A DNA stretch of 19,257 nt from Anaerolineales bacterium (GTDB lineage: Bacteria > Chloroflexota > Anaerolineae > 4572-78 > NAK82): positions 1 to 19,257 of the forward strand of contig JAHELX010000044.1 in NCBI GenBank assembly GCA_024643945.1. The letters are read 5' to 3'. Made by a program: the position numbers and the translations under genes. The notes below the pieces were generated by a model. That model did not search any database, was not told the DNA's origin, and saw nothing but the letters and a program-made list of their open reading frames with translations. Shown here piece after piece: positions 1 to 14,353 of this stretch (its first letter is position 1; each line of letters starts with the position of its first letter).

Positions 1-992
1 GCCCCTCGGGCATCTTTCGGGCACTGCGCACCATCCCGGTGATGTTGGGCATCGTCAAGGATATGGAGTGCCACTGCCCCAACGCAGTCTTGCTGAACTA
101 TACCAATCCCATGGCCATGTTGTGTCGGGCTATGCAGCGCGAATCGTTCATCCGGCTTACCGGTCTTTGCCACAGTGTACAGGGGACTGCCGAGATGCTG
201 GCCGGTTGGATCGGGGCGCCGTACGAAGAAATTACTTACACATGCGCAGGCATCAATCACCAGGCATGGTACCTTAAGTACGAGTGGAACGGCAAAGACG
301 CCTACCCTCTGATCCGCGAGGCCATGGAGAAACCCGAGGTTTACAATGAAGAAATCGTCCGCAACGAGATGTTCCTGCATCTGGACTACTACGTCACCGA
401 ATCGAGCGGGCACAACTCGGAGTACAACTGGTGGTTCCGCAAGCGCCCCGACCTGATCGAAAAGTATTGCACCCACGGCACGGGATGGAACCCGGGCGAG
501 CATGCCTACATCTTGAAAGAGTATCAGATGAGAGAACATACCTGGAAAGATGAGGCAAAAGCATGGTTCGCCGAGGAAACTCCGATCAGTCTGGAGCGGG
601 AGCACGAATACGCAGCCTACATTATCAATGCCTTGAAGGGAGGGGAGATCTTCTCCTTCAACGGCAACGTGCCCAACACCGGGCTGATCAGCGGCCTGCC
701 GGAGGGAGCGTGTGTGGAAGTGCCTGTCTATGTGGATAAAGCAGGTTTTCACCCGGTTCACGTGGGGGCGTTGCCTCCCCAATGCTTGACCCTGGTTCAC
801 ATCAGTGTGATGAGCGAGGAGATGGCCGTCGAGGCCGCCTTGAGTGGGGATCCACGCCTGGTTTTCCAGGCCATCGCCTATGATCCATTGACGGCGGCAG
901 TGCTCTCACTGGCCGAGATCAAAGACATGGTCAACGAGATGCTCCAACAGAACCGCGACTATCTGCCCCAGTTCAAACATCTCAAAGTATAA
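1..992 (+). CDS. GH4 family NAD-dependent alpha-glycosidase (5' end missing)
   Basis: The reading frame is open to the left edge (first full codon at 3), so the N-terminal Rossmann part, roughly 110-120 residues, lies outside the window. The visible part starts in the segment that reads GGLFKALRTLP in the second GH4 of this window. Counting from the Met at 39, it shows NYTNPM at 20-25, GLCHS with the metal-ligand Cys at 44, AGINHQAW with the ligand His at 74, and ESSGHNSEY. These are GH4 hallmarks. GH4 enzymes use NAD+ and a divalent metal (usually Mn2+) and cleave by oxidation at C3 and elimination. There is no phosphate-recognition evidence either way. The protein is most like the MelA/alpha-galactosidase branch and is expected in the cytoplasm. 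It lies upstream of the regulator of a sugar-import locus and is a clear paralogue of the GH4 at 9750. The exact sugar is not known; an alpha-galactosaminide is possible from context. Confidence 0.93.
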
Positions 993-1020
993 GCGTTTCG
1001 TCTGGCAGGTAGTATGTGCT

Positions 1021-1164
1021 GTAACTACTCCGCCTACCCTCCCAGAGCAAAGCCCCCCCACGGGGCAGGTTGCATTCACTGGACATCGTACGTCTGAATT
1101 GTCGAGTGTAGCAACGGTTTCTTCTTTGGCGCTTGCCTGAAACTGCGGGAGGGTAGGCAGTTAC
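1021..1164. repeat. Inverted repeat pair, MITE-like
   Basis: The 365 nt between the GH4 stop and the regulator start hold no gene. The right arm 1147-1164 (GGGAGGGTAGGCAGTTAC) is the reverse complement of the left arm 1021-1043, apart from an extra run of about five bases inside the left arm. The inner 12 bp (1032-1043 with 1147-1158) match perfectly. The arms enclose about 100 nt, including a small GCCCC/GGGGC hairpin at 1052-1066. This is the layout of a small non-autonomous element or a long-range stem. I see no clear target-site duplication. Confidence 0.5.
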
Positions 1165-1251
1165 CTGGAATTCTGCATTCCTCAGTCTTCACCATTTTTG
1201 AAACACGCCCTGCCCTGAAATTCAACATTTAGATAGTCACGAGCGCATGTT

Positions 1252-1281
1252 GTTTTGATTCAGGCTGAATTTGATCAAAAC
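1252..1281. promoter_or_regulatory. Nested palindrome, candidate DeoR-type operator
   Basis: Outer arms GTTTTGAT (1252-1259) and ATCAAAAC (1274-1281) are perfect inverted repeats. Inside sits a second perfect palindrome, ATTCAGGCTGAAT (1258-1270). The site ends 3 nt upstream of the -35 box of the regulator gene, where an autoregulatory DeoR-family protein could bind. That the DeoR-type protein binds here is inference. Confidence 0.5.
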
Positions 1282-1284
1282 CTA

Positions 1285-1313
1285 TTGACATTGATGACTG
1301 ATTATGATAAAAT
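1285..1313 (+). promoter_or_regulatory. Sigma70-type promoter of the regulator operon
   Basis: The -35 box TTGACA (1285-1290) is consensus. A 17-nt spacer leads to TAAAAT (1308-1313), one base from the consensus -10. The predicted start near 1320 leaves a leader of about 38 nt before the ATG at 1358. The promoter would drive the DeoR-type gene and the SIS gene that overlaps it, and probably the amidohydrolase. Confidence 0.7.
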
Positions 1314-1357
1314 TGGGACGGATTTAGTTTCGATTATGTTTGAACCCTGGAGGCGAT

Positions 1358-2155
1358 ATGGCTGCTTTATTAAAGGAAGAACGCCAGCAACTAATTTTGG
1401 AGACTGTTCGCGGTAGCCGGCAGGTTACCGTCGCCGAATTGAGCGACCGCTTTGACGTCAGCGAGGTCACTATCCGGCGTGACCTGCGCGCAATGGCTGA
1501 GCAGGGCATACTGCGCCGTGCTCATGGCGGGGCCGTCGCAGCGGTCCCCGCACCCCCTGAGCCGCCCGTAGTCCAACGCATGATCCAGGCGGAGCACTGC
1601 AAGGAATGTATTGGCCGCGCTGCGGCCTCCCTGGTATCAGATGGTGACTCAGTCTTCATTGGTTCGGGCTCTACTACCGCCTACGTTGCTCGCTACCTGG
1701 TTGACCGCAAGAATCTGACAGTGGTCACCAACGCTTTGACCGTCGCCACTGAACTGGCCGCCGCCGAGGGTGTGACAGTCGTGGTCACAGGTGGCATGAT
1801 GCGTGCCTCAGAGCTTTCCCTGGTGGGCCACATCACCGAGCAGGCCCTGCGCGAAGTGCGAGTGGATAAGGTCATTATGGGCATGCGGGCCATTAGCCTG
1901 GACGCAGGTATGACCAACGACTATCTACCCGAAGTGATGACCGACCGCACCATCATTCAGATGGCGCCGGAATTGATCGTTGTGGCCGACCACACCAAAT
2001 TCGGCAAGGTTGCCTCCGCGTACCTGGCATCGGTACAGCGCATTTCCACTTTGGTGACCGACTCGGACTCCAACTCCGAGATACTGGCCCGTTTAGAGGC
2101 AATGGGGGTTCGAATCATTGTAGCTGGCCCAGATGGGGAGGAAGATCACACATGA
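1358..2155 (+). CDS. DeoR family transcriptional regulator
   Basis: A 265-residue sugar-phosphate-responsive repressor type. The N-terminal winged HTH (about residues 6-60) has the family pattern VTVAELSDRFDVSEVTIRRD followed by HGGA. The C-terminal DeoRC effector domain begins around residue 80 and has the glycine-rich IGSGSTT loop, with TNALTVATEL and VVTGGMMR further on, as in the ISOCOT fold. I chose ATG 1358 because GGAGG lies at 1349-1353; a TTG at 1340 is in frame but would start upstream of that ribosome-binding site. The stop overlaps the next start by 4 nt (ATGA), so regulator and SIS enzyme are likely translationally coupled. DeoR/AgaR-type proteins commonly respond to phosphorylated sugars. 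An effector such as tagatose-6-phosphate or galactosamine-6-phosphate would fit but is inferred. Confidence 0.93.
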   Translation: MAALLKEERQQLILETVRGSRQVTVAELSDRFDVSEVTIRRDLRAMAEQGILRRAHGGAVAAVPAPPEPPVVQRMIQAEHCKECIGRAAASLVSDGDSVFIGSGSTTAYVARYLVDRKNLTVVTNALTVATELAAAEGVTVVVTGGMMRASELSLVGHITEQALREVRVDKVIMGMRAISLDAGMTNDYLPEVMTDRTIIQMAPELIVVADHTKFGKVASAYLASVQRISTLVTDSDSNSEILARLEAMGVRIIVAGPDGEEDHT

Positions 2156-3201
2156 CAAGAAACTCGCATACCTGGCAAGAGATCCTCAGTCAACCCCAGG
2201 TCTGGCAAATGACCCTGGAGGCCTTCGTCGCCAGCCAGTCAGCGCTGCAAGACTTTCTTGATCAAGCGAACTTTGACCAAATCCTCGTCGCCGGATGTGG
2301 GTCTACTCACTACCTGGCCCAGGCTGCCGCGGCGACCTTCAGCCATCGTACCGGTATCCCTGCCCGCGCCCTTCCCTCCTCTGAATTGTGGCTTTTCACC
2401 CATACAGTTCTCCCCAGCAGGACGCTCTTACTCGCTGTCTCTCGCTCGGGAACGACGACGGAGACATTGCTCGCGCTGCGTCGCTTCCGGGAGACCCAAG
2501 GGGGGCCCGTTCTTACCGTCACCTGTTATCCTGAAAGCCCGCTGGCCCAAAGGGCCGATTTCACGTTAGCTGCTCCTGACGCACAGGAGCACTCTGTCGC
2601 GCAGACCCGTTCCTTCACCAGCATGTTTCTGCTCACCCAAGCCCTGGCTGCTGTTCTGGCTAGCGATAAGGGGAGATTGGAACGCTTGCGTCGGCTTCCC
2701 GATGTCCTCGCTGGTTTGGTGGATCGGCTGGGGGACTTACCCCAGGAGTTGGGGCGAGCCTTGGACATCGAGCGCATCTTCTTCCTTGGAGGCGGCCCGC
2801 TCTATGGCCTGGCCAATGAGGCCATGCTCAAGACGAAGGAGATGTCCCTTTCTCATTCAGAAGCCTATCACCCTTTAGAATTTCGCCACGGGCCGATGTC
2901 TCTGGCGGATGAGCACACTCTGGTGGTGGGGCTCCTGTCCGACACAGGGTTGGCTGAGGAACTCTCCGTGCTAACGGATATGAAGGAATTAGGGGCGCGT
3001 ACGTTAGCGCTGGCCGAGGATGCTTCACTGTTTGCCGGCTGGCAGCCCGATCACGTCGTCGAATTGCGTAGCGGCCTGGACGAGTGGGAGCGCGGGCCGC
3101 TTTACCTGCCAATAGTCCAGCGCATAGCCTACCATCGGGCGCTGGCGAAGGGGCTAAATCCGGACCGTCCGCGCAATCTACAAGCAGTCGTCGAACTATG
3201 A
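2152..3201 (+). CDS. agaS: Double-SIS-domain sugar-phosphate isomerase/deaminase, AgaS-like
   Basis: 349 residues with two SIS domains, like the isomerase half of GlmS and like AgaS (COG2222). The N-terminus has the T..EI..QP..W pattern seen in AgaS-type proteins. The first SIS domain shows AGCGSTHYLA (47-56) and the phosphate-binding SRSGTTTET (97-105), then QTRSFTSM. The second SIS domain shows GGGPLYGLANEAMLKTKEM and ends in EAYHPLEFRHGP, which holds the usual catalytic Glu/His region. AgaS-type enzymes convert galactosamine-6-phosphate to tagatose-6-phosphate plus ammonia. The LacD-like aldolase, GatZ-like protein and PfkB kinase downstream support a product of that kind. Glucosamine-6-phosphate deaminase or a fructosamine-type deglycase are alternatives. 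The gene overlaps the regulator by 4 nt and is followed 6 nt later by the amidohydrolase. Confidence 0.85.
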   Translation: MTRNSHTWQEILSQPQVWQMTLEAFVASQSALQDFLDQANFDQILVAGCGSTHYLAQAAAATFSHRTGIPARALPSSELWLFTHTVLPSRTLLLAVSRSGTTTETLLALRRFRETQGGPVLTVTCYPESPLAQRADFTLAAPDAQEHSVAQTRSFTSMFLLTQALAAVLASDKGRLERLRRLPDVLAGLVDRLGDLPQELGRALDIERIFFLGGGPLYGLANEAMLKTKEMSLSHSEAYHPLEFRHGPMSLADEHTLVVGLLSDTGLAEELSVLTDMKELGARTLALAEDASLFAGWQPDHVVELRSGLDEWERGPLYLPIVQRIAYHRALAKGLNPDRPRNLQAVVEL

Positions 3202-3207
3202 GGTGCA

Positions 3208-4200
3208 ATGCACACAATTCAGGTCATTGATGCGCATATGCACGTCCACCCCGACATGGTGGCCGCTCTGGCAGCTATCATGGAGGCCAACCACCTGAGC
3301 CATGTAATCAACCTGGGCATCTTTGAGGTGTTGGGCATTCCGTTCCAGGAAGGCATGGACGCCTTTCGCAAAGTGCTGGGCGACCGCGTGCTTTACTTCC
3401 CCACGCCTGACTTCAGGGATACCTCCTCAGGCTTTGGCGAGCGCATGGCGGAGGACTTGGAGCGCAAGGTAGACGCAGGAGCCAAGGGTCTCAAGATCTT
3501 TAAAGAATTCGGGTTGCGCTACAGAGACACCGACGACAACCTGATTCCCGTAGACGACCCTCGCCTGGACTCTCTGTGGGCCAGGGCTGGCGAACTGGGT
3601 GTGCCTGTGCTCATCCACACTGCCGACCCGGTAGCCTTTTTCCAGCCGCTGGACGAGAACAACGAGCGCTGGGAGGAGTTGCAACTGCACCCCAACTGGC
3701 ACTTCGGCCGGCCAGAGTTCCCTGACCACGACACATTGCTGGCCCAGCGCAACCGCGTCATCGAGCGGCATCCCGATACAACTTTCATCGGCGCGCACCT
3801 GGGCAACTATCCGGAGAACCTGACCTATGTAGATGCCTGCTTGGACCGCTATCCCAACTTCTACGTGGACACATGTGCCCGCATTGGCGAGATTGGCCGT
3901 CACCCGGCACATGAGGTACGAGCGTTCTTTCTCAAGCACCAGGACCGCGTGATCTTTGGTACTGACCTGGTGCTCGGGTGGGAGGAGTTTGAGGAACAGG
4001 ATCAGGAAGATCTTTCGGAAGTCAAGCGTTTTTACGACGTTCATTGGCGCTTCTTTGAGACGGGTGAGCAGCAGATCGAATACCCGGGCTTCCCCATCCA
4101 GGGCCGTTGGAAGGTGGACGCTATCCACTTACCGGACGCGGTTCTGGAAAAACTGTACGTCCGAAACGCGCAGCGGTTGATCCCTGGATTACGGGAATAA
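3208..4200 (+). CDS. Amidohydrolase family (Amidohydro_2) metal-dependent hydrolase
   Basis: 330 residues forming a metal-dependent TIM barrel of the COG2159 type. The N-terminus carries the HxH motif (His10 and His12 in DAHMHVH). Other likely metal or catalytic positions are the Lys in KGLKIFKE (about 96), His137 in VLIHTAD, His197 in IGAHLGN and Asp253 in FGTDL. No signal peptide is seen, so it is cytoplasmic. A GAGG overlapping the upstream stop serves as ribosome-binding site for ATG 3208. Substrates in this family are very diverse (decarboxylation, lactone or amide hydrolysis). Within an amino-sugar locus, deacetylation or lactone opening are possible, but it is not the AgaA/NagA subfamily and no substrate can be read from the sequence. 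Confidence 0.88.
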   Translation: MHTIQVIDAHMHVHPDMVAALAAIMEANHLSHVINLGIFEVLGIPFQEGMDAFRKVLGDRVLYFPTPDFRDTSSGFGERMAEDLERKVDAGAKGLKIFKEFGLRYRDTDDNLIPVDDPRLDSLWARAGELGVPVLIHTADPVAFFQPLDENNERWEELQLHPNWHFGRPEFPDHDTLLAQRNRVIERHPDTTFIGAHLGNYPENLTYVDACLDRYPNFYVDTCARIGEIGRHPAHEVRAFFLKHQDRVIFGTDLVLGWEEFEEQDQEDLSEVKRFYDVHWRFFETGEQQIEYPGFPIQGRWKVDAIHLPDAVLEKLYVRNAQRLIPGLRE

Positions 4201-4355
4201 GCCCAACGATTACGCCTTCTACACGCCGCAGGCCGGCGACCACGCTCAAGGTAGCCTTCGAAAGTTCGCTGCTCATCGAGGCCGTGCCTCAGGGAGATTG
4301 ATATGAAGGAGGTGAGCGCTAGCGAGGTGCGAAAGAGTGACCTATCCAGACGGGC

Positions 4356-4384
4356 TTGTCCTAAGTTTCCTGAAACTTGGACAA
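4356..4384. promoter_or_regulatory. 29-bp near-perfect palindrome upstream of the binding-protein gene
   Basis: Left arm TTGTCCTAAGTTTC (4356-4369) and right arm GAAACTTGGACAA (4372-4384) pair fully apart from one unpaired T, with a 2-nt centre. It is an operator candidate, or a hairpin that guards the 5' end of the binding-protein mRNA, whose start codon is 55 nt downstream. It could also be a copy of a dispersed short repeat. The rest of 4201-4439 holds no convincing gene. The frame ending at 4299 (TLKVAFESSLLIEA...) reads like the tail of a lost coding sequence. Confidence 0.5.
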
Positions 4385-4439
4385 ACCTCTTCAGGCCGTG
4401 CGATTCGAGACGATACGAAACCGCAAAAGGAGGGAAGTG

Positions 4440-5804
4440 ATGGAAAAGCGCATATTCTTGAGCGTGTTTGCTGTTTTACTGGTTGTCAGTCTGGCCGCCT
4501 GTGGGTCGGCTCAGACTGCGGTGCCGGTTGCCCCTGAGAAACCTGCAGTTACTGAGGCGGCAAAAACCGCCGAGGCACCAAAAGCCGCTGAGGCACCCGC
4601 AGAGGCAGTGGAGATCACCTTTATGGCCTGGGGTGCTCCAGAGGAACTGACAGTCTGGCAGCAAATTGCTGACGAGTTCCACGCTGCCAACCCCAACATC
4701 ACGGTGAAGATGGACGTGTCCGAATGGGACTCATACTGGACTAAGCTGGACACCCTGTTTGCGGGCGGGACACCCCCGGACGTGTTTGCTATGGACGCGC
4801 CGCTCTTCCTCGACTGGCAAAGCCGCGGGGTGCTGCTGAACTTGCAGTCCTACATCGACGCCACCCCTGGTTTCCTGGATGATGTTTATGAGCAGACCCT
4901 CTCGGGCTACAAGCTGGCAGACGGGTACTACGGTCTGCCGCGTGACTTCCAGACCATCGTCATGTACTACAACAAGGACATGTTCGACGCCGCTGGGGTG
5001 GAGTACCCCAAGGAGGGCTGGACGTGGCAGGACCTACGCGAGATGGCCAAGAAGTTGACCGTGGACAAGAACGGTGACGGCAAGACTGACCAGTACGGCT
5101 ACTCCTGCGACCTGTGGGACATGGAGCTGTGCTGGAGTGAGGCCATCTGGGCCTATGGCGGCGATGTCATCAGCTCCGACTACACCCAGACCCTGATCGG
5201 CGAGCCCAAGGCGCGTGAGGCCTGGAAGCTGTTCTATGATATGACGTTTGTAGACAAGTCCATGCCCGATACGATCGCCGCCGGTGAATATGGTTATGAC
5301 CTGTTGCAGGCTGGTGTGGCGGCAATGTGGCCCCATGGACACTGGGCAATGCCTGCATATAAAGACGTCGAGTTCCAGTGGGACGTGGCTCCTATGCCCA
5401 CCGGTCCCGCCGGGCAGGCGACCAGCGTCAACAGCGCCGGGTTTGTCATCGCCAAGGACTCGAAACACCCGGACGCAGCCTGGGAGTTCGTCAAGTACGC
5501 CCTCAGCCAGACCGGCCAGACCCGTCTGACCGAACTGGGCCTGGCCATCCCGGTGCTCAAGTCTGTTGCTGAAAGCCCGGTCTTCCTTGAGCAGGATGTA
5601 AACGGACGGGCGATCAACCAGAAGGTCTTCCTGGACTCGCTGGAGTATGCCCATCTCAAGCCGATCTTCAGGGGCTATACGGAGTGGTCCGGCGCAATCG
5701 GTGATGGTATGGCCGATATTTGGGCTGGGGAAGCTGAGCTAGACGCGACCCTGGATGAGGCCGTGGCCGACGCCGACGCGGTGCTGGCAGAGCAACAACA
5801 GTAG
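4440..5804 (+). CDS. Sugar ABC transporter substrate-binding lipoprotein (family 1, CUT1)
   Basis: 454 residues. Residues 1-20 are a lipoprotein signal peptide with lipobox LAAC and lipid-modified Cys21. A low-complexity linker rich in Ala, Glu, Pro and Lys follows (about 25-55, with AEAPKAAEAPAEA repeats), then a family 1 extracellular solute-binding domain: EITFMAWG start, TLFAGGTPPDVFAMD, GYYGLPRDFQTIVMYYNKDMFD and PDAAWEFVKYALS. It is anchored outside the membrane and delivers a sugar or oligosaccharide to the two permeases downstream. ATG 4440 is chosen because AGGAGG sits at 4428-4433 and the signal peptide begins there; a TTG at 4377 would add 21 unsuitable residues. A 230-nt gap with a stable hairpin separates it from the permeases, common where the binding protein is needed in excess. 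The ligand is unknown; amino-sugar oligomers are suggested by GH114 nearby. Confidence 0.95.
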   Translation: MEKRIFLSVFAVLLVVSLAACGSAQTAVPVAPEKPAVTEAAKTAEAPKAAEAPAEAVEITFMAWGAPEELTVWQQIADEFHAANPNITVKMDVSEWDSYWTKLDTLFAGGTPPDVFAMDAPLFLDWQSRGVLLNLQSYIDATPGFLDDVYEQTLSGYKLADGYYGLPRDFQTIVMYYNKDMFDAAGVEYPKEGWTWQDLREMAKKLTVDKNGDGKTDQYGYSCDLWDMELCWSEAIWAYGGDVISSDYTQTLIGEPKAREAWKLFYDMTFVDKSMPDTIAAGEYGYDLLQAGVAAMWPHGHWAMPAYKDVEFQWDVAPMPTGPAGQATSVNSAGFVIAKDSKHPDAAWEFVKYALSQTGQTRLTELGLAIPVLKSVAESPVFLEQDVNGRAINQKVFLDSLEYAHLKPIFRGYTEWSGAIGDGMADIWAGEAELDATLDEAVADADAVLAEQQQ

Positions 5805-5906
5805 TAGCCGCATTTCGGTTCTCACCCCTGGCCTCCCTCCAGAACTGAGAGAGGGGATTCCTACTCTCTCCCAGAATGCTTCAGGGGCGGACAGGGTTAG
5901 CGCAAC

Positions 5907-5946
5907 GCTTTTGTAGGGGCGCCACATACGTCGTCCCTACAAAAGC
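5907..5946. repeat. Hairpin-forming inverted repeat between binding protein and permeases
   Basis: GCTTTTGTAGGG (5907-5918) pairs perfectly with CCCTACAAAAGC (5935-5946). One G-U pair and two more pairs extend the stem to about 15 bp around a 10-nt loop. There is no T-run after it, so it is not a classic terminator. A processing or mRNA-stability hairpin, or a copy of a dispersed GTAGGG-type repeat, fits better. A second small repeat, GAGAGAG/CTCTCTC, lies upstream within 5845-5872. The rest of 5805-6034 shows no gene. Confidence 0.6.
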
Positions 5947-6034
5947 ACCCTCGAATTCTTCGTCCTCCCCGTCTGCCCTTGAACCCAGAATAAAGAGAGG
6001 GTAAGGTCAGGGAGGAGGACGAGTATCCAGGAAA

Positions 6035-6931
6035 ATGTCAATGGAAGCATCTGGAATTAAGCCATTGAGAGGGGAGCGTTTCTGGCTGGGGGTGTTGCTG
6101 GCTCCCACCATCATAGGCCTGATGTTCGGCACGCTGGGGTCGGTGGCGGCAACGCTCCTCATCAGCCTCACCGATTGGGATCTGCTCACCCCGCCGCAAT
6201 GGGTGGGGCTGACAAATTACATCAAACTGTTCACCGACAAAGATCTGCTCGAATCCTTTCTGAACACGATCAAATTTAGCGCCATGTACGTGCCGGGCGT
6301 TGTTGTGGTGTCGCTGGCCGTGGCGGTGCTGATGAATCGCAGGATTCACGGCATCAGCCTGTACCGCACGATGTATTTTTTGCCGGTGGTCACTTCAGCC
6401 GTCGCGGCGGCCCTGGTGTGGCAAATGATCTACGGTCGGGACACCGGCCTGTTGAATTACGTGATCGAGCGGTTGGGTGGCGAGCCGGTATGCTGGCTCT
6501 GCCCCAGCAAAGCCCTGTATTCGGTCGTGATCGTGAACGTTTGGGGCGCTATTGGCGAGGGGATGATCATCTTCCTGGCCGGGCTGCAAGCCATCCCACG
6601 CGACTATTACGAAGCTGCTACGGTGGACGGCGCCAGTGGCTGGCAGCGGTTTTTCCGCATCACCGTGCCATTGGTCACCCCCAGCATTTTCTTCCAAACA
6701 CTGATCACGACGATCAATGCCTTCCAGGCCTACGAATATATTTATATGCTTACCCGGCGCGGCCAGGGGGATAGCTCGGTCCCGGTGGTCGTATTTTCTA
6801 TCTACCGCCGTGGATTCAATTTCTTCCGCATGGGCGAGGCCAGTGCTCTGGCAATAGAACTGGCTGTCATGGTGATTGCACTCATGGCAGTTTACTTCTG
6901 GCTGGAACGCCGTTACGTGGTGTATGAATAG
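6035..6931 (+). CDS. Sugar ABC transporter permease, MalF/UgpA type
   Basis: 298 residues with about six membrane segments; the first is around residues 15-40 (WLGVLLAPTIIGLMFGTL). The cytoplasmic EAA loop reads EAATVDGASGWQRFFRITVP, the site where the shared ATPase docks. The length and the TDWDLLTPPQWVGLTNY segment fit the CUT1 permease 1 class. No in-frame start lies upstream. The ATG at 6035 has only a weak AGGA close by, since GGAGGAGG at 6011-6018 is about 17 nt away; the ATG at 6041 is an alternative. It pairs with the permease 5 nt downstream and with the binding protein at 4440. Confidence 0.94.
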   Translation: MSMEASGIKPLRGERFWLGVLLAPTIIGLMFGTLGSVAATLLISLTDWDLLTPPQWVGLTNYIKLFTDKDLLESFLNTIKFSAMYVPGVVVVSLAVAVLMNRRIHGISLYRTMYFLPVVTSAVAAALVWQMIYGRDTGLLNYVIERLGGEPVCWLCPSKALYSVVIVNVWGAIGEGMIIFLAGLQAIPRDYYEAATVDGASGWQRFFRITVPLVTPSIFFQTLITTINAFQAYEYIYMLTRRGQGDSSVPVVVFSIYRRGFNFFRMGEASALAIELAVMVIALMAVYFWLERRYVVYE

Positions 6932-6942
6932 GAGATATGGCT

Positions 6943-7794: not shown

Positions 7795-7801
7795 GTGAAC
7801 C

Positions 7802-8129
7802 GTGAAGCCTTTGCGGCACATTGCACTCCTGTCCGCGGGAGCGGCACTCCGGCTTCGGCCTCTTCTCTCAGAACGCCGAGAAGTTGGGCATCCACTTCCC
7901 AGACTACCTGGAGACGGTCACCGGCATCGGTGTCGAAGACCCGTACTACGGCTACCCGCGCGACCACGAGCCCCGCCGCCTGATTGACACCGCTTACGCT
8001 CGTTCCCCGGTGCGGGGCAACGTCCCCTTCGTCCCGCCTACGCGGGGCTTCGTGACCACGCGCTCGCTGGGTCTGGTCATCATCAACGGAGGACAAGAAC
8101 CGGATTGGAAGGAGGTGGTGATTTGCTAG
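7802..8129 (+). pseudogene. Broken TM1410/GH114-like secreted hydrolase
   Basis: A GTG at 7802 with AGGTGA just upstream starts a signal-peptide-like stretch (VKPLRHIALLSAGAAL). After about 45 nt the homology moves into another frame, which reads SQNAEKLGIHFPDYLETV, then TGIGVEDPYYGY, then after a further gap DTAYARS...VPFV...NGGQEPD. The order and motifs match the C-terminal half of TM1410-type (GH114-related) proteins. The middle of the barrel is missing, as is the segment between DHEP and DTAYARS, and the frame changes once. The short insertion VPFVPPTRGFVTTRS looks like local scrambling. The family tail normally ends soon after EPD; here it runs on to VIC before the stop. The intact GH114 follows directly, so this is probably a lost second polygalactosaminidase-type gene. 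Confidence 0.7.
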
Positions 8130-8206: not shown

Positions 8207-8207
8207 A

Positions 8208-9035
8208 ATGATTACGAACAAGTCTCTTATCCTGCGCTCGGTGTCAATCGTGGCTGTATTGGTGGGTCTATTGCTGATGGGTCTGCCGCATGCCGAGGGT
8301 GCCCTGCCGGGGCCCTGGTGGCAGCCCTCCCCGGGTGTGACCTGGCAATGGCAGTTGACCGGCCTGCCCGTTGACCAGTCCTACAACGTGCAAATGTACG
8401 ACATTGACCTGTTCGACAACGATGCCAGTGTCGTGGCCTCGCTGCACGCTCAGGGCCGCAAGGTCATCGCCTACTTCAGTGCCGGTTCCTGGGAGGACTG
8501 GCGGCCGGATGCCGGCCAGTTTCCAGAGGAGGTGAAGTGCAGGCGCAACGGTTGGCCAGGCGAGAGGTGGCTGGACATCCGCCGGCTTGACATCCTCGGC
8601 CCGATCATGGAGGCGCGGATGGACCTGGCTGTGCAGAAAGGCTTCGACGGCGTCGAGCCGGACAACGTGGACGCCTACTCCAACAAGAACGGCTGTCCGG
8701 GCACGATCACCTACCAGGATCAGCTCAACTACAATCAGTGGCTGGCGAACGCGGCCCACGCGCGTGGCCTGTCGGTGGGTCTGAAGAACGACATAGAGCA
8801 GGTCGTTGATCTGGAACCGTACTTCGACTGGGCGCTGAACGAACAGTGCTTCCAGTACAGGGAGTGCGACTACCCCAACGGCGGGCTGCTGAACTTCATC
8901 AACGCCGGGAAGGCTGTCTTCCAGGTTGAGTACAAACTGAGCAAGACCAAGTTCTGCCCGCAGGCTAACGCCTGGACGTTCAGTTCGATGAAGAAGAACC
9001 TCAATCTGGACGCGTGGATGGATCCGTGCTGGTAG
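8208..9035 (+). CDS. Secreted GH114 family hydrolase (endo-alpha-1,4-polygalactosaminidase type)
   Basis: 275 residues. Residues 1-31 form a Sec signal peptide (KSLILR, hydrophobic core, HAEG). The mature part is a single GH114 TIM barrel with family patterns [15 protein letters not shown] (64-71), [36 protein letters not shown] (145-157) and GLKNDIEQV. The acidic residues of the [10 protein letters not shown] strand (Glu150, Asp152) are the likely active-site groups. GH114 enzymes cleave alpha-1,4-linked galactosamine polymers, and a related domain occurs in PelA, which acts on the Pel exopolysaccharide. AGGAGG (8197-8202) lies 5 nt before the ATG. Export plus the ABC importer and AgaS-like enzyme upstream suggests extracellular depolymerisation of galactosamine-rich polymer. 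Four Cys late in the protein could form disulfides. Confidence 0.93.
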
Positions 9036-9062
9036 ATGGCATCACGCTCGAAGGTCAGACAA

Positions 9063-9091
9063 GTGTGCTGGGCTCGTCGAGCCCAGCACAC
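9063..9091. terminator. Strong 13-bp hairpin after the GH114 gene
   Basis: GTGTGCTGGGCTC (9063-9075) and GAGCCCAGCACAC (9079-9091) pair perfectly around a 3-nt loop, beginning 28 nt after the GH114 stop. There is no T-run downstream, so it is a terminator-like or 3'-end-protecting stem rather than a canonical intrinsic terminator. It may instead be a recombination scar, since transposase debris begins about 30 nt later. Confidence 0.5.
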
Positions 9092-9121
9092 CCCAACCAT
9101 TCGACGTATGCTTCCTCCGGC

Positions 9122-9286
9122 TGGACCTTGACCATTGTCAAACGTCCGAAAGGCGCTCACGGCTTCCAGGTTTTGCCGCACCGATGGGTGGTCGAACGAA
9201 CCTTCGCCTGGTTGGGTTGGTATAGAAGGTTGGGCAAAGACCGAAGCCTTACCTGAAACCAGTGAAGCCATGATTTATGCCGCTCT
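9122..9286 (+). mobile_element. IS5-type transposase remnant (3' end only)
   Basis: The translation reads [20 protein letters not shown], then [15 protein letters not shown]. This is the C-terminal DDE transposase signature of IS5-family elements, whose catalytic Glu lies in [10 protein letters not shown]. The next conserved block, [13 protein letters not shown], is shifted by one frame, so a frameshift interrupts it. The first three-quarters of the transposase and both IS ends are missing. Homology stops abruptly at about 9286, where kinase-like sequence begins. It cannot transpose. Confidence 0.75.
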
Positions 9287-9288
9287 CC

Positions 9289-9405
9289 GGCTCGATCGTG
9301 GCGCTCAACGAGGTCAGCCGGGCCGCGTGCCGCCACGCCCTGAACCTGATCCTGGCGGCAGGTGGCCGGCTCCGCTTCGATCCCAACTTGCGCCCTGAGA
9401 TGATG
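9289..9405 (+). pseudogene. Fragment of a PfkB-type (KdgK-like) sugar kinase
   Basis: About 39 codons read GSIVALNEVSRAACRHAL, then LILAAGGRLRFDPNLRPEMM. This matches the internal segment of 2-keto-3-deoxygluconate/fructokinase-like PfkB proteins (ALNE.SR.A...A...GG...FDPNLRPE). Neither the N-terminal substrate lid nor the C-terminal GAGD motif is present. It differs from the intact kinase at 13421, whose matching segment reads SMDTNYDPSE, so it derives from a different kinase gene. It is joined in frame to unrelated sequence on its right. Confidence 0.6.
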
Positions 9406-9674
9406 CCACTGAACGTCGGCGGCAGCCTCGATCCAGGTTATCCCTTGCCAGGCAAAGTCCGGCAAGCCCAGTTCATCCTGCCGAAGGGCATGGATTGGAA
9501 AGGATTGAAGCTGAAGGCCGAGATCGAGGTAAAAGGCGTATGCTACCCGATGAGCTGGGCTTGCCACCAGAAGGCCAACCCGGATGGCACCCTCACCTTG
9601 CGGCCCACAAAGGGACTGTCGAGTTGAATGAGCATGAGGGCTGGTTTCCATACTGGCCACAAGATGGCAGGTAA
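9406..9674 (+). pseudogene. C-terminal fragment of an unidentified gene, frameshifted
   Basis: From 9406 the frame continues with FILPKGMDWKGLKLKAEIEV and YPMSWACHQKANPDGTLTLR. At about 9600-9612 the good frame shifts and reads on as KGTVELNEHEGWFPYWPQDG up to a TAA at 9672-9674. In the unshifted frame a premature stop falls at 9625-9627. The style suggests the C-terminal domain of a carbohydrate-active protein, but I do not recognise the family. It has no start of its own and is fused to the kinase slice, so it is debris of a deleted gene. Confidence 0.5.
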
Positions 9675-9728
9675 GAAACCCACTCTACTACTACTGCGGC
9701 CCACGAAAGGACTGTCGAGTTGAACGAG
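9601..9728 (+). repeat. Direct repeat pair, 32 bp, 96 bp apart
   Basis: The block 9601-9632 recurs at 9697-9728 with three mismatches. Both copies contain GGACTGTCGAGTTGAA. The first copy lies in the coding tail of the decayed gene (reading TVELNE), and the second sits just upstream of the GH4 ribosome-binding site. This indicates a small tandem duplication or two deleted copies of the same gene end. Confidence 0.75.
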
Positions 9729-9749
9729 ATGCGAGGAGGAGATTCACTT

Positions 9750-11063
9750 ATGTCTCAAATCAAGGTTACGATTATAGGTGCTGGCAGCACCGTGTTCGCC
9801 ACCGAGCTGATGACCGACATCCTCTCCACTCCGGTGCTGGAGCACGGTGTCTTTGCCCTGGTGGACATTGACGTTGAGCGGCTGGAACTGGCCCATCGCA
9901 TGGCCGAGTTCCTCATCGCTCGCAGTGGCCGGGACTGGGCCGTCGAGGCCAGCACCGACCGGACCAAGGTGCTGGCCAGGAGCGACTATGTCATCAATAC
10001 CATCGAGGTCGCCGGCCTGGCCAACGTCCGCCACGACTATGAAATCCCGCTCAAGTACGGCGTGGATCAGTGCATCGGCGACACCATTGGCCCCGGTGGG
10101 CTGTTCAAGGCGTTGCGCACGCTGCCGGCCTGGCTTGACATCCTGAAGGACGTGGAGCGCCTGACCTCTCGCGCCCTGGTCATGAATTATACCAACCCTA
10201 TGTCGCTCACCGTGCTGACCGGCATCCGGGCTTCGTCGCTGCCCATTGTCGGTCTCTGCCACTCCATCCAGCACACCTCCCAGCAACTGGCTGGCTACCT
10301 GGGCCTCCCCTACGAGGAGATTGACTGGCGCGCGGCTGGTATCAACCACCTGGCCTGGTTCGTGCAGCTTGAGCGCGATGGGAAAAACCTCTACCCGCTA
10401 TTGCGCCAGCGCATCCAGGACCCGACCATCTATGAGCAGGACCCGGTGCGCTTCGACATGATGTTGCACTTGGGCGCATTCCCCACTGAAAGCAGCGGAC
10501 ACGTCTCTGAGTACACTGGCTACTACCGCAAACGCCCTGACCTCATCCAGCGCTACTGTCGCTCCGACTACCGCGGTGAGAGTGGCTTCTACGCCAACAA
10601 CTGGCCGGCATGGCGTGCCGAGAGCGACCAGGAGATCCGTGACTATCTCTCCGGCAAGAAAGAGTTCGAGTTCGAGCGCGGTCCAGAATTCGCCTCGTAC
10701 ATCATGGAGGCTATGGAAGCCGGCACGCCGGCTGTCATCTATGGCAACGTGCTCAACACCGGCTTGATTGACAACCTGCCCCACGACGGCGTGGTCGAGG
10801 TGGCCTGCCTGGTGGATAAGAAAGGGGTGGAGCCCACCCACTTTGGGCCGTTGCCCACCCAATTAGCCATCCTCAATCAACAGCACATGGCTTTTCATGA
10901 TTTGGTTGCCGCGGCTGTGCTGGAGCAGGATCGGGAAGCGGCCGTGCATGCGTTAATGGTAGATCCACTCACGGCTGCCGTCTGCTCTTTGGCTGAAGTG
11001 CGACAGATGTTTGCAGAGATGGTTGAGGTAGAGCGTGACTATCTCCCAGAATTCCTCTTCTAG
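9750..11063 (+). CDS. GH4 family NAD-dependent alpha-glycosidase (complete)
   Basis: 437 residues, the usual GH4 length. The N-terminal Rossmann fold has the NAD-binding loop IIGAGSTVFATEL (8-20) and acidic LVDID. Then come DTIGPGGLFKALRT (111-123), NYTNPM (146-151), GLCHS with metal ligand Cys170, AAGINHLAW with ligand His200, ESSGHVSEY and RKRPDLI. AGGAGG at 9734-9739 points to ATG 9750; a TTG at 9720 is in frame but falls in the duplicated debris. It has no signal peptide and acts in the cytoplasm on imported alpha-linked sugars. It needs NAD+ and a divalent metal. It is a paralogue of the GH4 at the left edge, differing strongly between the RKRPDLI motif and the C-terminal third, which suggests a different aglycone or sugar preference. 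Alpha-galactosidase is the default call; alpha-galactosaminidase is suggested by context only. Confidence 0.95.
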   Translation: MSQIKVTIIGAGSTVFATELMTDILSTPVLEHGVFALVDIDVERLELAHRMAEFLIARSGRDWAVEASTDRTKVLARSDYVINTIEVAGLANVRHDYEIPLKYGVDQCIGDTIGPGGLFKALRTLPAWLDILKDVERLTSRALVMNYTNPMSLTVLTGIRASSLPIVGLCHSIQHTSQQLAGYLGLPYEEIDWRAAGINHLAWFVQLERDGKNLYPLLRQRIQDPTIYEQDPVRFDMMLHLGAFPTESSGHVSEYTGYYRKRPDLIQRYCRSDYRGESGFYANNWPAWRAESDQEIRDYLSGKKEFEFERGPEFASYIMEAMEAGTPAVIYGNVLNTGLIDNLPHDGVVEVACLVDKKGVEPTHFGPLPTQLAILNQQHMAFHDLVAAAVLEQDREAAVHALMVDPLTAAVCSLAEVRQMFAEMVEVERDYLPEFLF

Positions 11064-11079
11064 AGACGGGGGTTGAAGA

Positions 11080-12396
11080 ATTCTAGAATCATTACTTGAT
11101 ATCATCGCCGCCCATAAACGCGGCAGATCGGTTGGCATCTATAGCATCTGCTCGGCCCATCCTTTTGTGCTGGAAGCCTGTGTGCGTCAGGCCATCAAAA
11201 ACGCACCGCCACTGCTCATCGAGTCGACCTCGAACCAGGTGAATCAGTACGGGGGGTATACTGGCACGACCCCCTCTGACTTCCATCGCTACGTTTGGGG
11301 CATCGCCGACAAATTCAGCTTTCCCCGGGAGCGGCTCATCCTGGGGGGTGATCATCTAGGCCCCAACCCCTGGCAGCACGAACCAGCAGAAAAGGCTATG
11401 GCCAAAGCCCGAACGCTGATTCAGGATTGCGTCTCGGCCGGTTATACCAAGATTCACCTGGACGCCAGCGTGAAGTGCGCCGACGACGACCCCGACTCTC
11501 CCCTGGACAAATCAATTTCAGCCGAGCGGGCCGCCGAACTGTGCCTGGTCGCGGAGACGACTTATTTAGAATTGGACTCAATCCAGGCGGCACCGTGCTA
11601 CGTGATCGGTACGGAAGTTCCGCCGCCAGGCGGAGCGCAAGAAAATGAAGATGAACTGGCCGCGACTACAATTGGAGACGCCCAGGAGACGATTGAACTG
11701 ACCAGAGAGGCATTCAGGCGACGCAGGCTGGACGCCGCCTGGCAACGGGTTATCGCCGTGGTGGTTCAACCGGGTGTTGAATATGGTGATGACTCTCTGT
11801 TTGAATACAATCGCCAGGCGGTGTCTCAACTCTCCCGCTTTATCGAGACGGATGAGCAGCTTATCTTCGAGGCTCATTCCACCGATTATCAAACCCGCGA
11901 GGCGCTACGTGCCATGGTCGAAGACCACTTCGCCCTTCTAAAGGTAGGCCCGGCTCTCACCTTTGCTTTTCGGGAAGCTATTTTTGCCCTGGCCTTGGTG
12001 GAATCGGAGTGGCTGGCTAAACGGAAGGGGATCGAATTGTCCCATATTGTCCAGGTTCTTGACGATACTATGTCAGATAACCCGGCTCATTGGAAAAAGT
12101 ATTACGCCGGACCAGAGCCTTACATCCAATTCGCCCGCAAGTACAGCTTCAGCGATCGCTCGCGCTATTATTGGCCTGACCTGGATGTTCAGAAATCTTT
12201 GGCCCGGTTGATTGGTAACCTGCAAGCATATCCTGCACCTTTGACCCTGTTAAGTCAATTCTTGCCAGTGCAGTACGAGCGGGTCAGGGCCAGGATGCTG
12301 GCAAACACCCCCGGAGAACTGATTTACGACAAGATTGCCTCTGTTATTGCGGACTATGCGTATGCATGTGGCTACGGTCGAGCAGTGGATGTGTAG
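11080..12396 (+). CDS. gatZ: GatZ/KbaZ family protein (tagatose-bisphosphate aldolase subunit or ketose-6-P 4-epimerase)
   Basis: About 438 residues (E. coli GatZ and KbaZ are about 420-426). Family landmarks are HKRGRSVGIYSICSAHPFVL, ESTSNQVNQYGGYTGTTPSD, LILGGDHLGPNPW, GYTKIHLDASVKC, FEAHSTDYQT and LKVGPALTFAFREA. Homology begins at LLDIIAAHK, yet no ATG, GTG or TTG occurs in frame between the upstream stop (11074-11076) and GTG 11167. GTG 11167 would delete the conserved SICSAHP block. The codon where family members start is ATT at 11080. GatZ supports GatY in class II tagatose-1,6-bisphosphate aldolase, and some members of this family have been described as fructose-6-phosphate/tagatose-6-phosphate 4-epimerases. 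No GatY is present here, which favours a stand-alone enzyme acting on tagatose-6-phosphate. It lies 16 nt after the GH4 stop. Confidence 0.88.
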   Translation: MLESLLDIIAAHKRGRSVGIYSICSAHPFVLEACVRQAIKNAPPLLIESTSNQVNQYGGYTGTTPSDFHRYVWGIADKFSFPRERLILGGDHLGPNPWQHEPAEKAMAKARTLIQDCVSAGYTKIHLDASVKCADDDPDSPLDKSISAERAAELCLVAETTYLELDSIQAAPCYVIGTEVPPPGGAQENEDELAATTIGDAQETIELTREAFRRRRLDAAWQRVIAVVVQPGVEYGDDSLFEYNRQAVSQLSRFIETDEQLIFEAHSTDYQTREALRAMVEDHFALLKVGPALTFAFREAIFALALVESEWLAKRKGIELSHIVQVLDDTMSDNPAHWKKYYAGPEPYIQFARKYSFSDRSRYYWPDLDVQKSLARLIGNLQAYPAPLTLLSQFLPVQYERVRARMLANTPGELIYDKIASVIADYAYACGYGRAVDV

Positions 12397-12436
12397 AATT
12401 GACCGAGGCGCGTTTCATTTTGACAGGGGAAACTGA

Positions 12437-13411
12437 ATGACTTCACTTTCTGTTGGCAAGATCCGCCGGCTGCAGCAATGCGCTATATCGCGCGGAGTCT
12501 TCTCTATCCTAGCCATAGATCACCGCAACAACTTACGCCGGGCGCTGAATCCTCAGGACCCAAGTGCCGTGCCCGACGACGCGATGGTGGACTTCAAGTG
12601 CGCGGTCGTTGCGGCTTTGGCACCTGTGTCATCCTCTATCCTGATCGATCCAGAGTATGGTGCAACCCCAGTCATCACAAGTGGAGCGTTGCCCGGAGCA
12701 ATAGGGTTGATCGTGGCTTTGGAGCGCACTGGTTATACCGGAAGTCCCAGCCGTCGCCTGAGCGAAATCATGCCGGACTGGAGCCCACAAAGAGTCGCGC
12801 GCATGGGAGCCAGCGGTGTTAAATTGCTGGTCTACTACCATCCAGATGCGCCCACTGTGTCTGGAATTGAGACCCTGGTGGAACAGGTTGGCGCCTTGTG
12901 CCTGGAGGCTGACATCCCGCTGTTCCTTGAGCCGCTTTCCTATTCACCGGACCCAGCCCAACCCAGGCTTTTGCCCCAGGAGCGCCAACGGGTCGTGATA
13001 GAAACTGCCCGCCGGCTGACTTCTATCCCCGGCGTGGACGTGCTCAAGGCCGAGTTCCCGCTAGACATTGGGGCTGTTCCCAACGAGGCCGAGTGGCTGG
13101 CTGCTTGCCAGGAACTGACGGGGAGTTCTCGTGTCCCCTGGGTCCTCCTCAGCGCGGGAGTGGACTTTGAGACTTATTTGCGTCAGGTGGTTGCCGCCGT
13201 CCGCGCCGGGGCCAGCGGGGTTGCCGTGGGGCGGGCTGTCTGGAAGGAAGCTGTGGAACTGGCGCCGGAAGAGCGTAATGTGTTCCTGTTCACCGTCGCC
13301 AGAGAGCGAATGGCGCGTGCCACGGAGCTCTGCCAGGCGCTGGCCCACCCCTGGACTGATTTCCACTCGCCGCTCGCAATGGAGAGTCATTGGTATGAGG
13401 ACTACCCGTAG
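12437..13411 (+). CDS. LacD-like class I tagatose-1,6-bisphosphate aldolase
   Basis: 324 residues, close to LacD (about 326). It is a TIM barrel with the LacD patterns FSILAIDHRNNLRR (22-35), DFKCAVV, ILIDPEYG (69-76), GVKLLVYYHPD (127-137) and DVLKAEFPLD. Lys204 in that last motif matches the Schiff-base lysine of LacD, and Lys129 the second conserved active-site lysine. The reaction splits tagatose-1,6-bisphosphate to dihydroxyacetone phosphate and glyceraldehyde-3-phosphate. AGGGGA lies upstream of ATG 12437, and GGAG overlapping its stop serves the kinase gene 9 nt downstream. With the AgaS-like isomerase and PfkB kinase it completes a tagatose-6-phosphate route. Related LacD-like aldolases for other ketose phosphates, such as sulfofructose-type aldolases, are less likely alternatives. 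Confidence 0.87.
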   Translation: MTSLSVGKIRRLQQCAISRGVFSILAIDHRNNLRRALNPQDPSAVPDDAMVDFKCAVVAALAPVSSSILIDPEYGATPVITSGALPGAIGLIVALERTGYTGSPSRRLSEIMPDWSPQRVARMGASGVKLLVYYHPDAPTVSGIETLVEQVGALCLEADIPLFLEPLSYSPDPAQPRLLPQERQRVVIETARRLTSIPGVDVLKAEFPLDIGAVPNEAEWLAACQELTGSSRVPWVLLSAGVDFETYLRQVVAAVRAGASGVAVGRAVWKEAVELAPEERNVFLFTVARERMARATELCQALAHPWTDFHSPLAMESHWYEDYP

Positions 13412-13420
13412 GAGCACATT

Positions 13421-14353
13421 ATGAAAGAATTTGACATCCTGGCCGTCGGCGAGCTAAACGCGGACCTGATTCTGTATGGTGATGTCACCCCCGAGTTCGG
13501 TCAGGTGGAGAAGTTGATCGAGAGCGCCGACCTCACCCCAGGCAGTTCCACCGGTATCTTCGCGTGCGGAGCGGCTCAACTCGGGTTGCGGGTCGCGTTT
13601 ATTGGGAAAGTAGGAGACGATGAATTTGGGCATTTCTTGTTGCGAGAACTGGAAAGGCGCGGCATTGATGCCTCTGGTGCGGTGATCGATCCCCATCTTA
13701 AGACGGGCCTGACTGTCATTCTCTCACGTGGTACCGATCGGGCCATATTGACCTTTCCAGGCTGCATCCCGGCCCTGCACTACGAAGAAATCGACCTCAG
13801 CTACCTGGCGCGCGCCCGCCACCTGCACATCGGGAGCTACTTCCTGCTGGACGCTCTGCGTCCCAACCTCCCCGCCCTCTTCGACCTGGCACACACGCAC
13901 GCGCTCACCGTGTCTATGGACACCAACTATGATCCTAGCGAGACATGGGACGATGGGCTCTGGGAGTGCCTGGAACGCACCGACATTTTCTTGCCCAATG
14001 AAGCAGAGTTGCGCGCCATCTTTCAGGCCATCGCTCGCAAGAAGGGCACCCTTGAGACGAGCCTGAACTTTTTCGCTCAGCATATTCCCACGGTAGCAGC
14101 CAAGCTGGGTGCACAGGGGGCCATCGCTCAGCGAGGTAAGGAGGTAACCAAGGCCAATGCGCTTTCGCTTGAGGTCGTGGATACCACTGGCGCAGGGGAC
14201 ACTTTCGACGCCGGCTTCATCTACGGTCATCTGGCAGGGTGGAACCTCCAGCGCACCCTGCGTTTTGCTTGCATTTGTGGCTCGCTATCTATCCGCGCAG
14301 CAGGTGGCACTGAGGCCCAACCCACCTCTAAGGAGGTACTGAACTTGATGTAG
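13421..14353 (+). CDS. PfkB family carbohydrate kinase, likely tagatose-6-phosphate kinase
   Basis: 310 residues of ribokinase fold. N-terminal VGELNADLIL (9-18) and ADLTPGSSTGIFACGAAQLG (substrate and lid region) are followed by FIGKVGDDEFG. The C-terminal signature VDTTGAGDTFDAGFIYG has catalytic base Asp260 and the anion-hole GAG. ATG 13421 has GGAG 6 nt upstream. It directly follows the LacD-like aldolase, so phosphorylation of tagatose-6-phosphate to the 1,6-bisphosphate is the most economical role. It could instead phosphorylate the incoming amino sugar, a step otherwise unaccounted for in this window. It is cytoplasmic and ATP-dependent. It is the last gene of the sugar locus. Confidence 0.87.
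   Translation: MKEFDILAVGELNADLILYGDVTPEFGQVEKLIESADLTPGSSTGIFACGAAQLGLRVAFIGKVGDDEFGHFLLRELERRGIDASGAVIDPHLKTGLTVILSRGTDRAILTFPGCIPALHYEEIDLSYLARARHLHIGSYFLLDALRPNLPALFDLAHTHALTVSMDTNYDPSETWDDGLWECLERTDIFLPNEAELRAIFQAIARKKGTLETSLNFFAQHIPTVAAKLGAQGAIAQRGKEVTKANALSLEVVDTTGAGDTFDAGFIYGHLAGWNLQRTLRFACICGSLSIRAAGGTEAQPTSKEVLNLM

Follow-up and report, generated by a model that had tools for sequence, protein, structure and literature searches.

What does a bacterium gain from an endo-α-1,4-galactosaminidase whose gene lies amid genes of sugar import and catabolism? The question is raised by a 19,257-nucleotide stretch of DNA (the window; contig JAHELX010000044.1, assembly GCA_024643945.1) from an Anaerolineales bacterium, in which one run of plus-strand genes spanning positions 3-14353 includes a predicted glycoside hydrolase of family 114 (GH114). 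We conclude, with a probability of roughly 0.7, that this run is a utilisation locus for an α-1,4-linked polymer of galactosamine (GalN) and N-acetylgalactosamine (GalNAc), bacterial Pel-like or fungal galactosaminogalactan, that is fed by an ATP-binding cassette (ABC) importer and free of a phosphotransferase system (PTS). The combination is that of a glycan utilisation locus with Aga-type catabolism, and a largely similar gene set recurs in other Chloroflexota, more than chance would explain. In the biofilms of bacteria and moulds, Pel and galactosaminogalactan are major cationic polymers; the work consulted on enzymes that degrade them deals with one enzyme at a time (PMC12054363). A recurring catabolic locus would mean that such a polymer serves bacteria as food, and it names candidate downstream enzymes.

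Gene content of the window and its two galactosaminidase families

A first-pass annotation had placed all of its named genes on one strand, and gene calls and profile matches across 3-14353 bear this out. It had overlooked an Amidohydro_2 enzyme (here AMH, 3208-4200) and a GH191 remnant (7821-8126), and the debris around GH114 was unlisted; its interpretation is supported with the amendments given below. The features are as follows.

3-992, plus strand: GH4-A, an NAD-type α-glycosidase, 5' end cut by the window edge (PF11975, PF02056; CHSV and GINH motifs; NF011657, 382 bits)
1285-1313, plus strand: sigma-70-like promoter before the DeoR gene, TTGACA-17-TAAAAT, 11 of 12 consensus matches
1340-2155, plus strand: DeoR-family regulator, best named match AgaR (207.6 bits)
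2152-3201, plus strand: double-SIS sugar-phosphate deaminase/isomerase, GlmD/AgaS-like (profile matches)
3208-4200, plus strand: AMH, Amidohydro_2 enzyme (Pfam; conserved HxH, K, H, H, D)
4377-5804, plus strand: CUT1 sugar-binding protein (Pfam; lipobox LAAC by eye)
6035-6931, plus strand: CUT1 permease 1 (Pfam)
6937-7794, plus strand: CUT1 permease 2 (Pfam)
7821-8126, plus strand: decayed C-terminal fragment of a TM1410-type GH191 gene with an internal deletion (TIGR01370; alignment to an intact GH191)
8208-9035, plus strand: predicted GH114 endo-α-1,4-galactosaminidase (Pfam PF03537; N-terminal signal peptide by eye; catalytic Asp and Glu)
9158-9250, plus strand: insertion sequence (IS) scar, an IS5-family transposase remnant (NF033580, E 2.6e-8)
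9277-9414, plus strand: scar, fragment of a second PfkB-type sugar kinase (fructokinase match, E 3.7e-4; no Pfam match)
9418-9624: stretch without Pfam match between GH114 and GH4-B
9599-9632 and 9695-9728: 34-nucleotide direct repeat, copies 96 bases apart
9720-11063, plus strand: GH4-B, α-glycosidase of a second subtype (NF011657, 503 bits)
11080-12396, plus strand: GatZ/KbaZ family protein (PF08013; start codon uncertain)
12437-13411, plus strand: LacD-like class I aldolase (PRK12858, 255.7 bits; Schiff-base-type lysine in DVLKAEFP)
13421-14353, plus strand: PfkB-family sugar kinase (profile matches, none over cut-off)

DeoR and SIS overlap by 4 bases, and the gaps between SIS and AMH, between the two permeases and between LacD and PfkB measure 5-9 bases, a spacing that suggests a shared transcript for each pair. 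The window genes scanned with Pfam include no PTS gene, hence no PTS permease of the E. coli aga/gam type, no GalNAc-6-phosphate deacetylase of the NagA/AgaA type (AMH being Amidohydro_2), no LacAB-type isomerase and no sugar dehydrogenase; with the CUT1 genes present, the earlier proposal of an ABC-fed, PTS-free route is supported.

The GH114 protein matches PF03537 at 282.7 bits (gathering score 27), and its best solved-structure relative is Ega3 (6oj1, E 4e-55). Its catalytic residues are Asp152 and Glu212, and this Asp/Glu pair is kept in 90 of 90 aligned GH114 rows, counted by alignment as a strict motif is too narrow (47 and 51 of the 90 rows). Judging from its sequence, it is a candidate endo-cleaver of poly-α-1,4-galactosamine. 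Directly upstream, the incomplete GH191 gene consists of the C-terminal part alone, with an internal deletion; TIGR01370 on its own matches it weakly (E 0.043), but it is identical in 52 of 121 columns, with 38 gaps, to the intact GH191 of a related locus, L171 (loci and genomes carry our L and G numbers), and also aligns to the intact GH191 of L161 and L121. The L161 protein in turn matches TM1410 (4e-45) and, weakly, PelA (1.6e-4). GH191 is a galactosaminidase family sister to GH114, and one member is active on Pel (PMC12054363). Two endo-galactosaminidase families within one locus point to a galactosamine polymer as the substrate.

Recurrence of the gene set in Chloroflexota

The debris around GH114 raises the possibility of an insertion, and we therefore examined the conservation of GH114 in relatives. 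PF03537 passes its cut-off in 55 of the 400 Chloroflexota genomes sampled (the sample centre, G003, was picked for its AMH), and 60 regions of at most 20 kb, several on short contigs, were taken for all 55, with GH114 or GH191 mapped in 59. Nine of these have some core gene nearby, and seven are strong: L118, L119, L121, L161 and L171 with an amino-sugar locus, and L142 and L154 with GH114, GH4 and CUT1 genes only. L172 and L173 show a weak SIS match only (25-26% identity), and the other 50 have no catabolic-core gene at the threshold used. The gene order of L118 is DeoR-AMH-SIS-binding protein-permease 1-permease 2-GH4-GH114-LacD-PfkB-GatZ; L121 and L161 hold both GH114 and GH191, and L171 holds GH191. 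The locus-linked GH4 of L118 shares 73% identity with GH4-A of the window, and GH4-B is 75% identical to L121.

A second count was built on AMH, which occurs (E up to 1e-40) in 25 of the 400 genomes and whose close relatives bear the names Anaerolineae or Chloroflexota. Its surroundings were taken for 24 genomes and extended for seven (G341 also with L119), G003 being represented by L003. Near AMH in the 25 genomes lie SIS (13), GH4 (13), DeoR (11), PfkB (10), LacD (9), GatZ (7), GH114 (5) and GH191 (3), numbers that include distant cases (GH114 of G073 about 22 kb off, SIS of G025 at 33%, GH4 of G064, G348 and G266 at 34-39%) and two rows of self-matches, the query proteins having included those of L118 (G225) and L121 (G153). 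At the genome level AMH and GH114 are associated (9 of 25 versus 46 of 375, Fisher p 0.003, uncorrected for kinship).

The loci homologous to that of the window begin DeoR-AMH-SIS, with DeoR at no less than 63%, and were found in nine genomes (G225, G406, G081, G334, G153, G241, G341, G257 and G346). GH114 and/or GH191 is present in five of them (G225, G406, G081, G153 and G341). The first-pass annotation had named conserved co-occurrence of GH114, GH4, SIS, GatZ and LacD as a check, and loss of GH114 from homologous loci as evidence against its proposal; in the event, four other Chloroflexota genomes have GH114 in their homologous locus, and a fifth has GH191 there. One further locus, that of G241, runs off its contig inside GH4. 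The G341 locus is in pieces: one contig ends inside GH4 (L180, L200), and the end of another has a cut GH4 followed by GH114-LacD-PfkB-GatZ (L119), and we infer that these pieces form one locus.

Several observations weigh against a galactosamine-polymer locus. The surroundings of GH114 in the window are scarred by the GH191 fragment, the IS5 remnant, the PfkB-type piece and the direct repeat. Fifty-two of the 59 Chloroflexota regions lack strong core neighbours, with GH4 or another strong core gene in seven and the amino-sugar core in five, and G334, G257 and G346, three of the nine homologous loci, contain neither GH114 nor GH191. The closest AMH relatives (L001-L004, 65-75%) have no GH114 in the stretch examined, L001-L003 lying on short contigs; in L001 GH4 adjoins AMH, and L004 (20 kb) carries DeoR, SIS, GH29, AMH, LacD, PfkB and a divergent GatZ. 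The L003 genome has a GH114 on another contig (59% identical) and the L001 genome has GH191-like hits; neither family was found in the genomes of L002 and L004. The importer also varies: the binding protein of the window shares 59% identity with its counterpart in L118 but 22-24% with the ones in L121, L161 and L171. Published enzymology adds that no activity was found for a T. maritima GH191 and that a soluble bacterial GH114 was not obtained (PMC12054363).

One candidate explanation, that GH114 is a chance or IS-borne passenger, as the adjacent IS5 remnant and PfkB scrap might indicate, was set aside because other genomes have GH114 in their homologous locus too. Another takes its cue from loci in which the same core occurs without GH114 and GH191, accompanied instead by a GH36-like enzyme and DUF4832/DUF4874 proteins (L178, L184) or a beta-helix protein (L181), and from the similar core with GH29 in L004. 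These occurrences, which also tell against a dedicated polymer locus, would be expected of a general GalNAc/GalN core (AgaR-like regulator, AMH, SIS, PfkB, LacD and GatZ) fed by various α-GalNAc glycans, with GH114 as one interchangeable glycosidase. We consider this unlikely, as GH114 or GH191, where present, lies inside the gene run, both families occur together in L121 and L161, and the GH114-GH4-CUT1-PfkB set is seen again in a second phylum, where most of the core is missing (see below).

The GH4 enzymes bear on a further alternative. GH4-B scores over the α-galactosidase subfamily cut-off (NF011657, 503 versus 486 bits; GH4-A, cut by the window edge, stays below it at 382), and we know of no GH4 enzyme that acts on amino sugars, both of which count against our interpretation. 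Together with the IS5 and PfkB scars beside GH114, the GH4-B score would suit an ordinary α-galactoside (melibiose/raffinose) locus with a MelA-like GH4 and the tagatose pathway, GH114 being an insertion passenger. This we regard as very improbable, because the corresponding locus of relatives also has GH114, an amino sugar is indicated by both the SIS protein, of the deaminase type, and the AgaR-like regulator, and a LacAB-type isomerase is missing among the window genes scanned. A locus for a galactosamine polymer, which we favour, has room for such an enzyme: fungal galactosaminogalactan contains galactose as well, and one GH4 may therefore be a plain α-galactosidase.

Other genes of these loci deserve mention. 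DUF4874 and DUF4832 proteins behind the CUT1 permeases of L178, L180 and L184, loci with the same amino-sugar core, are candidate glycosidases. Genes for TMEM260/PMT-like membrane glycosyltransferases lie within galactosamine loci (L161:9217-10902 and L180:16830-18353), and the G341 locus encodes a protein with the GH114-associated N-terminal domain PF14741 (L180:18499-19899).

The proposed route and its enzymes

The route that we infer, including its substrate, the order of its steps and the specificities of the GH4, PfkB, AMH and SIS enzymes, would begin outside the cell, where the secreted GH114 would cut the polymer, formerly aided by a GH191 enzyme that is now decayed. The CUT1 importer, with an ATPase from elsewhere, would bring in oligomers, from which the two cytoplasmic GH4 enzymes (42% identical to each other, two subtypes) would free GalN, GalNAc and possibly galactose. 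The PfkB kinase would form the 6-phosphate, AMH would take off acetyl groups, and the SIS enzyme would convert GalN-6-phosphate to tagatose-6-phosphate and ammonia. GatZ would turn tagatose-6-phosphate into fructose-6-phosphate, and/or a kinase and LacD would lead via tagatose-1,6-bisphosphate to triose phosphates, the whole presumably controlled by the AgaR-like DeoR regulator. PelG was absent from 12 of 12 genomes searched, whose completeness is unstated; the polymer is therefore more likely to come from other organisms than to be Pel made by the bacterium itself.

At the entry to this route, the nearest solved relatives of the binding protein are an arabino-oligosaccharide binder and Lmo0181, from which its substrate is not assignable. 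The sole ABC ATPase among the Pfam-scanned window genes (17057-17881) is part of a metal-type transporter on the other strand; downstream of PfkB the window continues with a NUDIX gene and, on that other strand, ObgE, this transporter and a protein without Pfam match. The PfkB kinase matches ribokinase, IolC, tagatose kinase and YdjH, none over cut-off, so that its substrate is likewise not assignable.

Since Pel is mainly a GalN-GalNAc repeat (PMC9135694), a deacetylase is expected. The nearness of AMH to SIS and its amidohydrolase-like conserved residues make it a candidate GalNAc(-6-phosphate) deacetylase. Of the five genomes with GH114 or GH191 in the locus, four (G225, G406, G341 and G081) lack a NagA match over cut-off and G153 has one; five of the 12 genomes searched have such a match. 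In Foldseek and VIA-align searches (best 50 each), the AlphaFold model of AMH (pLDDT 88.6) falls in the amidohydrolase-2 fold, with ACMSD, dihydroxybenzoate decarboxylases and COG3618 proteins; lower-ranked neighbours include phosphotriesterases, dihydroorotases and one deacylase (3gip). These matches give the fold only, from which function does not follow, and NagA-type enzymes are not among the matches listed, which tells nothing either way. Some Amidohydro_2 relatives are sugar lactonases. For this one step, a lactonase in place of a deacetylase would be compatible with structural neighbours (decarboxylases, COG3618-type proteins, other hydrolases) that leave the function unfixed, and with the dehydrogenase, FAA-hydrolase and SMP30-type genes near AMH in L074 of Streptosporangium. 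We think it doubtful, though not negligible, in view of the SIS gene near AMH in 13 of 25 Chloroflexota genomes, the AMH genes that adjoin SIS and PfkB in Acidobacteria and Bacillota (L046, L051, L056), a window without a sugar dehydrogenase among the genes scanned, the four of five relevant genomes without a NagA-type deacetylase over cut-off, and the deacylase 3gip among the structural neighbours.

The SIS protein, taken as AgaS-like in the first-pass annotation, is indeed an AgaS/GlmD-like double-SIS protein, nearer by score to GlmD (NF041128, 165 bits, cut-off 580, the best named match; GlmS, 161) than to AgaS (TIGR02815, 116, cut-off 529), with no cut-off passed. AgaS, of the SIS type, is the proposed GalN-6-phosphate deaminase of E. 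coli (PMC3668189).

GatZ matches PF08013 at 555.6 bits (cut-off 26.7) and 2fiq at 2e-120; aligned to 2fiq, it keeps GGDHLGPN, IGTEVP, EAHSTDYQ, LLKVGPAL, SICSAHP and IESTSNQ, the 4-epimerase residues named in PMC11907403. It scores 529.1 bits against the equivalog TIGR02810 (cut-off 568.8), the scanned protein being short of at least 24 first residues; its frame is open from 11077, and the first ATG/GTG/TTG, at 11167, would remove conserved residues. GatZ proteins are reported as fructose-6-phosphate/tagatose-6-phosphate 4-epimerases (PMC11907403), and the window protein is probably one as well. With these residues, and with GatZ but no LacD in the region examined of the G346 locus, fructose-6-phosphate is a likely exit alongside LacD. 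The LacD-like aldolase passes the cut-off of the tagatose-1,6-diphosphate aldolase subfamily (PRK12858, 255.7 versus 184 bits) and lies below that of LacD (TIGR01232, 112 versus 432). The exit to triose phosphates proposed earlier would not be the only one. Elsewhere, a UxaE protein (tagaturonate epimerase family; L188:8175-9401) adjoins AMH-SIS-LacD-PfkB with no GatZ mapped, a possible replacement 4-epimerase, and divergent GatZ-like proteins (108 and 115 bits to PF08013) lie behind PfkB in two AMH loci without GH114 (L002:2104-3318 and L004:13001-14251).

The best of 14 listed named profiles for the DeoR protein is AgaR (NF040755), at 207.6 bits under a cut-off of 260. TGATTG repeats with a 10-base period occur at the DeoR start, or shortly before it, in L118, L161, L171, L178, L179, L180, L181 and L184, a hint of a possible operator of the AgaR-like regulator. 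A matrix built from those eight relatives and from the sites it then found has its best match in the window at the same place (1295-1310, overlapping the promoter), where its score of 14.6, against shuffles that kept single-base composition only (mean 11.9, maximum 17.6), is not significant alone; no strong TGATTG site was found in L121 or L004.

Known systems and actinobacterial loci

With the aga/gam system of E. coli the window shares an AgaR-like repressor, a SIS-type GalN-6-phosphate deaminase/isomerase, a GatZ/KbaZ protein and the tagatose-6-phosphate route (PMC3668189). It differs in having CUT1 ABC import and a PfkB kinase in place of a PTS, which is missing among the genes scanned, Amidohydro_2 in place of AgaA and a LacD-type class I aldolase in place of KbaY, and it adds the polymer-cutting GH114 and GH4. 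The Shewanella Aga pathway (AgaP/AgaK/AgaAII/AgaS) is likewise PTS-free, with a permease and a kinase; no polymer-degrading enzyme or ABC importer is named in the accessible text of PMC2996990. The endo-galactosaminidases of GH114, GH191 and GH166 (Ega3, Env-GH191 and PelA) share with our loci the GH114 catalytic Asp/Glu and, in the relatives, the GH191 partner. They are treated as single enzymes (PMC12054363), whereas in the window and its relatives such genes stand beside import and catabolism genes. In Latescibacteria genomes, GH114 and a PTS route were predicted to make poly-D-galactosamine a carbon source (PMC4454575); GH114 as a carbon-source enzyme is common to both cases, but that prediction concerns single genes and a PTS route, with no locus described in the accessible text. 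A described catabolic locus for Pel or galactosaminogalactan was not found in the open-licence literature among the matches listed. By family and by the GatZ residues present, the window GatZ would belong with E. coli GatZ/KbaZ and an enzyme of Caldilinea aerophila, Caldilinea being a genus of Chloroflexota. The latter enzyme is cited as a GatZ-family 4-epimerase in PMC11907403.

In the order of Streptosporangium saharense, PF03537 scored over cut-off in 86 of 200 genomes. We took 38 regions, comprising 33 of the 36 best-scoring among 94 listed matches and five lower ones, so that weaker GH114 relatives were hardly sampled. GH4 lies nearby in 12 of the 38; ten (L255-L264) combine GH114, GH4 and a CUT1 importer, nine of these with PfkB, four with DeoR and two with SIS, and the weaker GH114 relatives L250-L252 have no GH4. 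A second form, GH114 with AMH, occurs in nine of 80 AMH loci (L052, L053, L054, L059, L062, L066, L072, L074 and L076), eight with GH4 and six with CUT1 genes. Neither GH4 nor GH114 was found in 24 AMH loci among L005-L047 (mostly Planctomycetes), a rough contrast that was not blind, having been picked after none had been seen. The AMH relatives in those 24 loci perhaps indicate that the family has a further role.

In a quick tree of 90 GH114 rows, 25 of them locus-linked including the window, the linked rows are scattered over several branches: near the window and L121 (branching not settled), L118/L119/L161, L142/L154, the L255-L264 group and the L059-L074 group. The starred branches force at least four changes of the linked label for Chloroflexota and at least five for Actinobacteria, with 27 of 86 inner branches weak, a pattern to be expected if linkage was gained, or lost, repeatedly. 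A bolder version of our proposal, tentative and somewhat short of even odds, holds that the GH4 enzymes are true α-galactosaminidases (oxidation-elimination on a 2-amino sugar), that AMH is a non-NagA GalNAc-6-phosphate deacetylase and that the set came together around GH114 on more than one occasion in Chloroflexota and Actinobacteria. The locus supplies bacterial GH114, GH191, GH4 and deacetylase candidates, and it raises two questions at the level of families: can GH4 act on amino sugars, and does Amidohydro_2 replace NagA/AgaA?

Two actinobacterial loci hold further genes of note. In L255 a GFO_IDH_MocA protein (3898-5151, minus strand), perhaps a GH109-like α-GalNAcase or a sugar dehydrogenase, lies directly behind the CUT1 permeases of the GH114-GH4 locus. 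In Streptosporangium saharense (L074:3217-8605), genes for an FAD oxidase, an SDR, an Ala-racemase-N type protein, an FAA hydrolase and a zinc dehydrogenase stand beside GH4-AMH-GH114, perhaps an oxidative sugar route.

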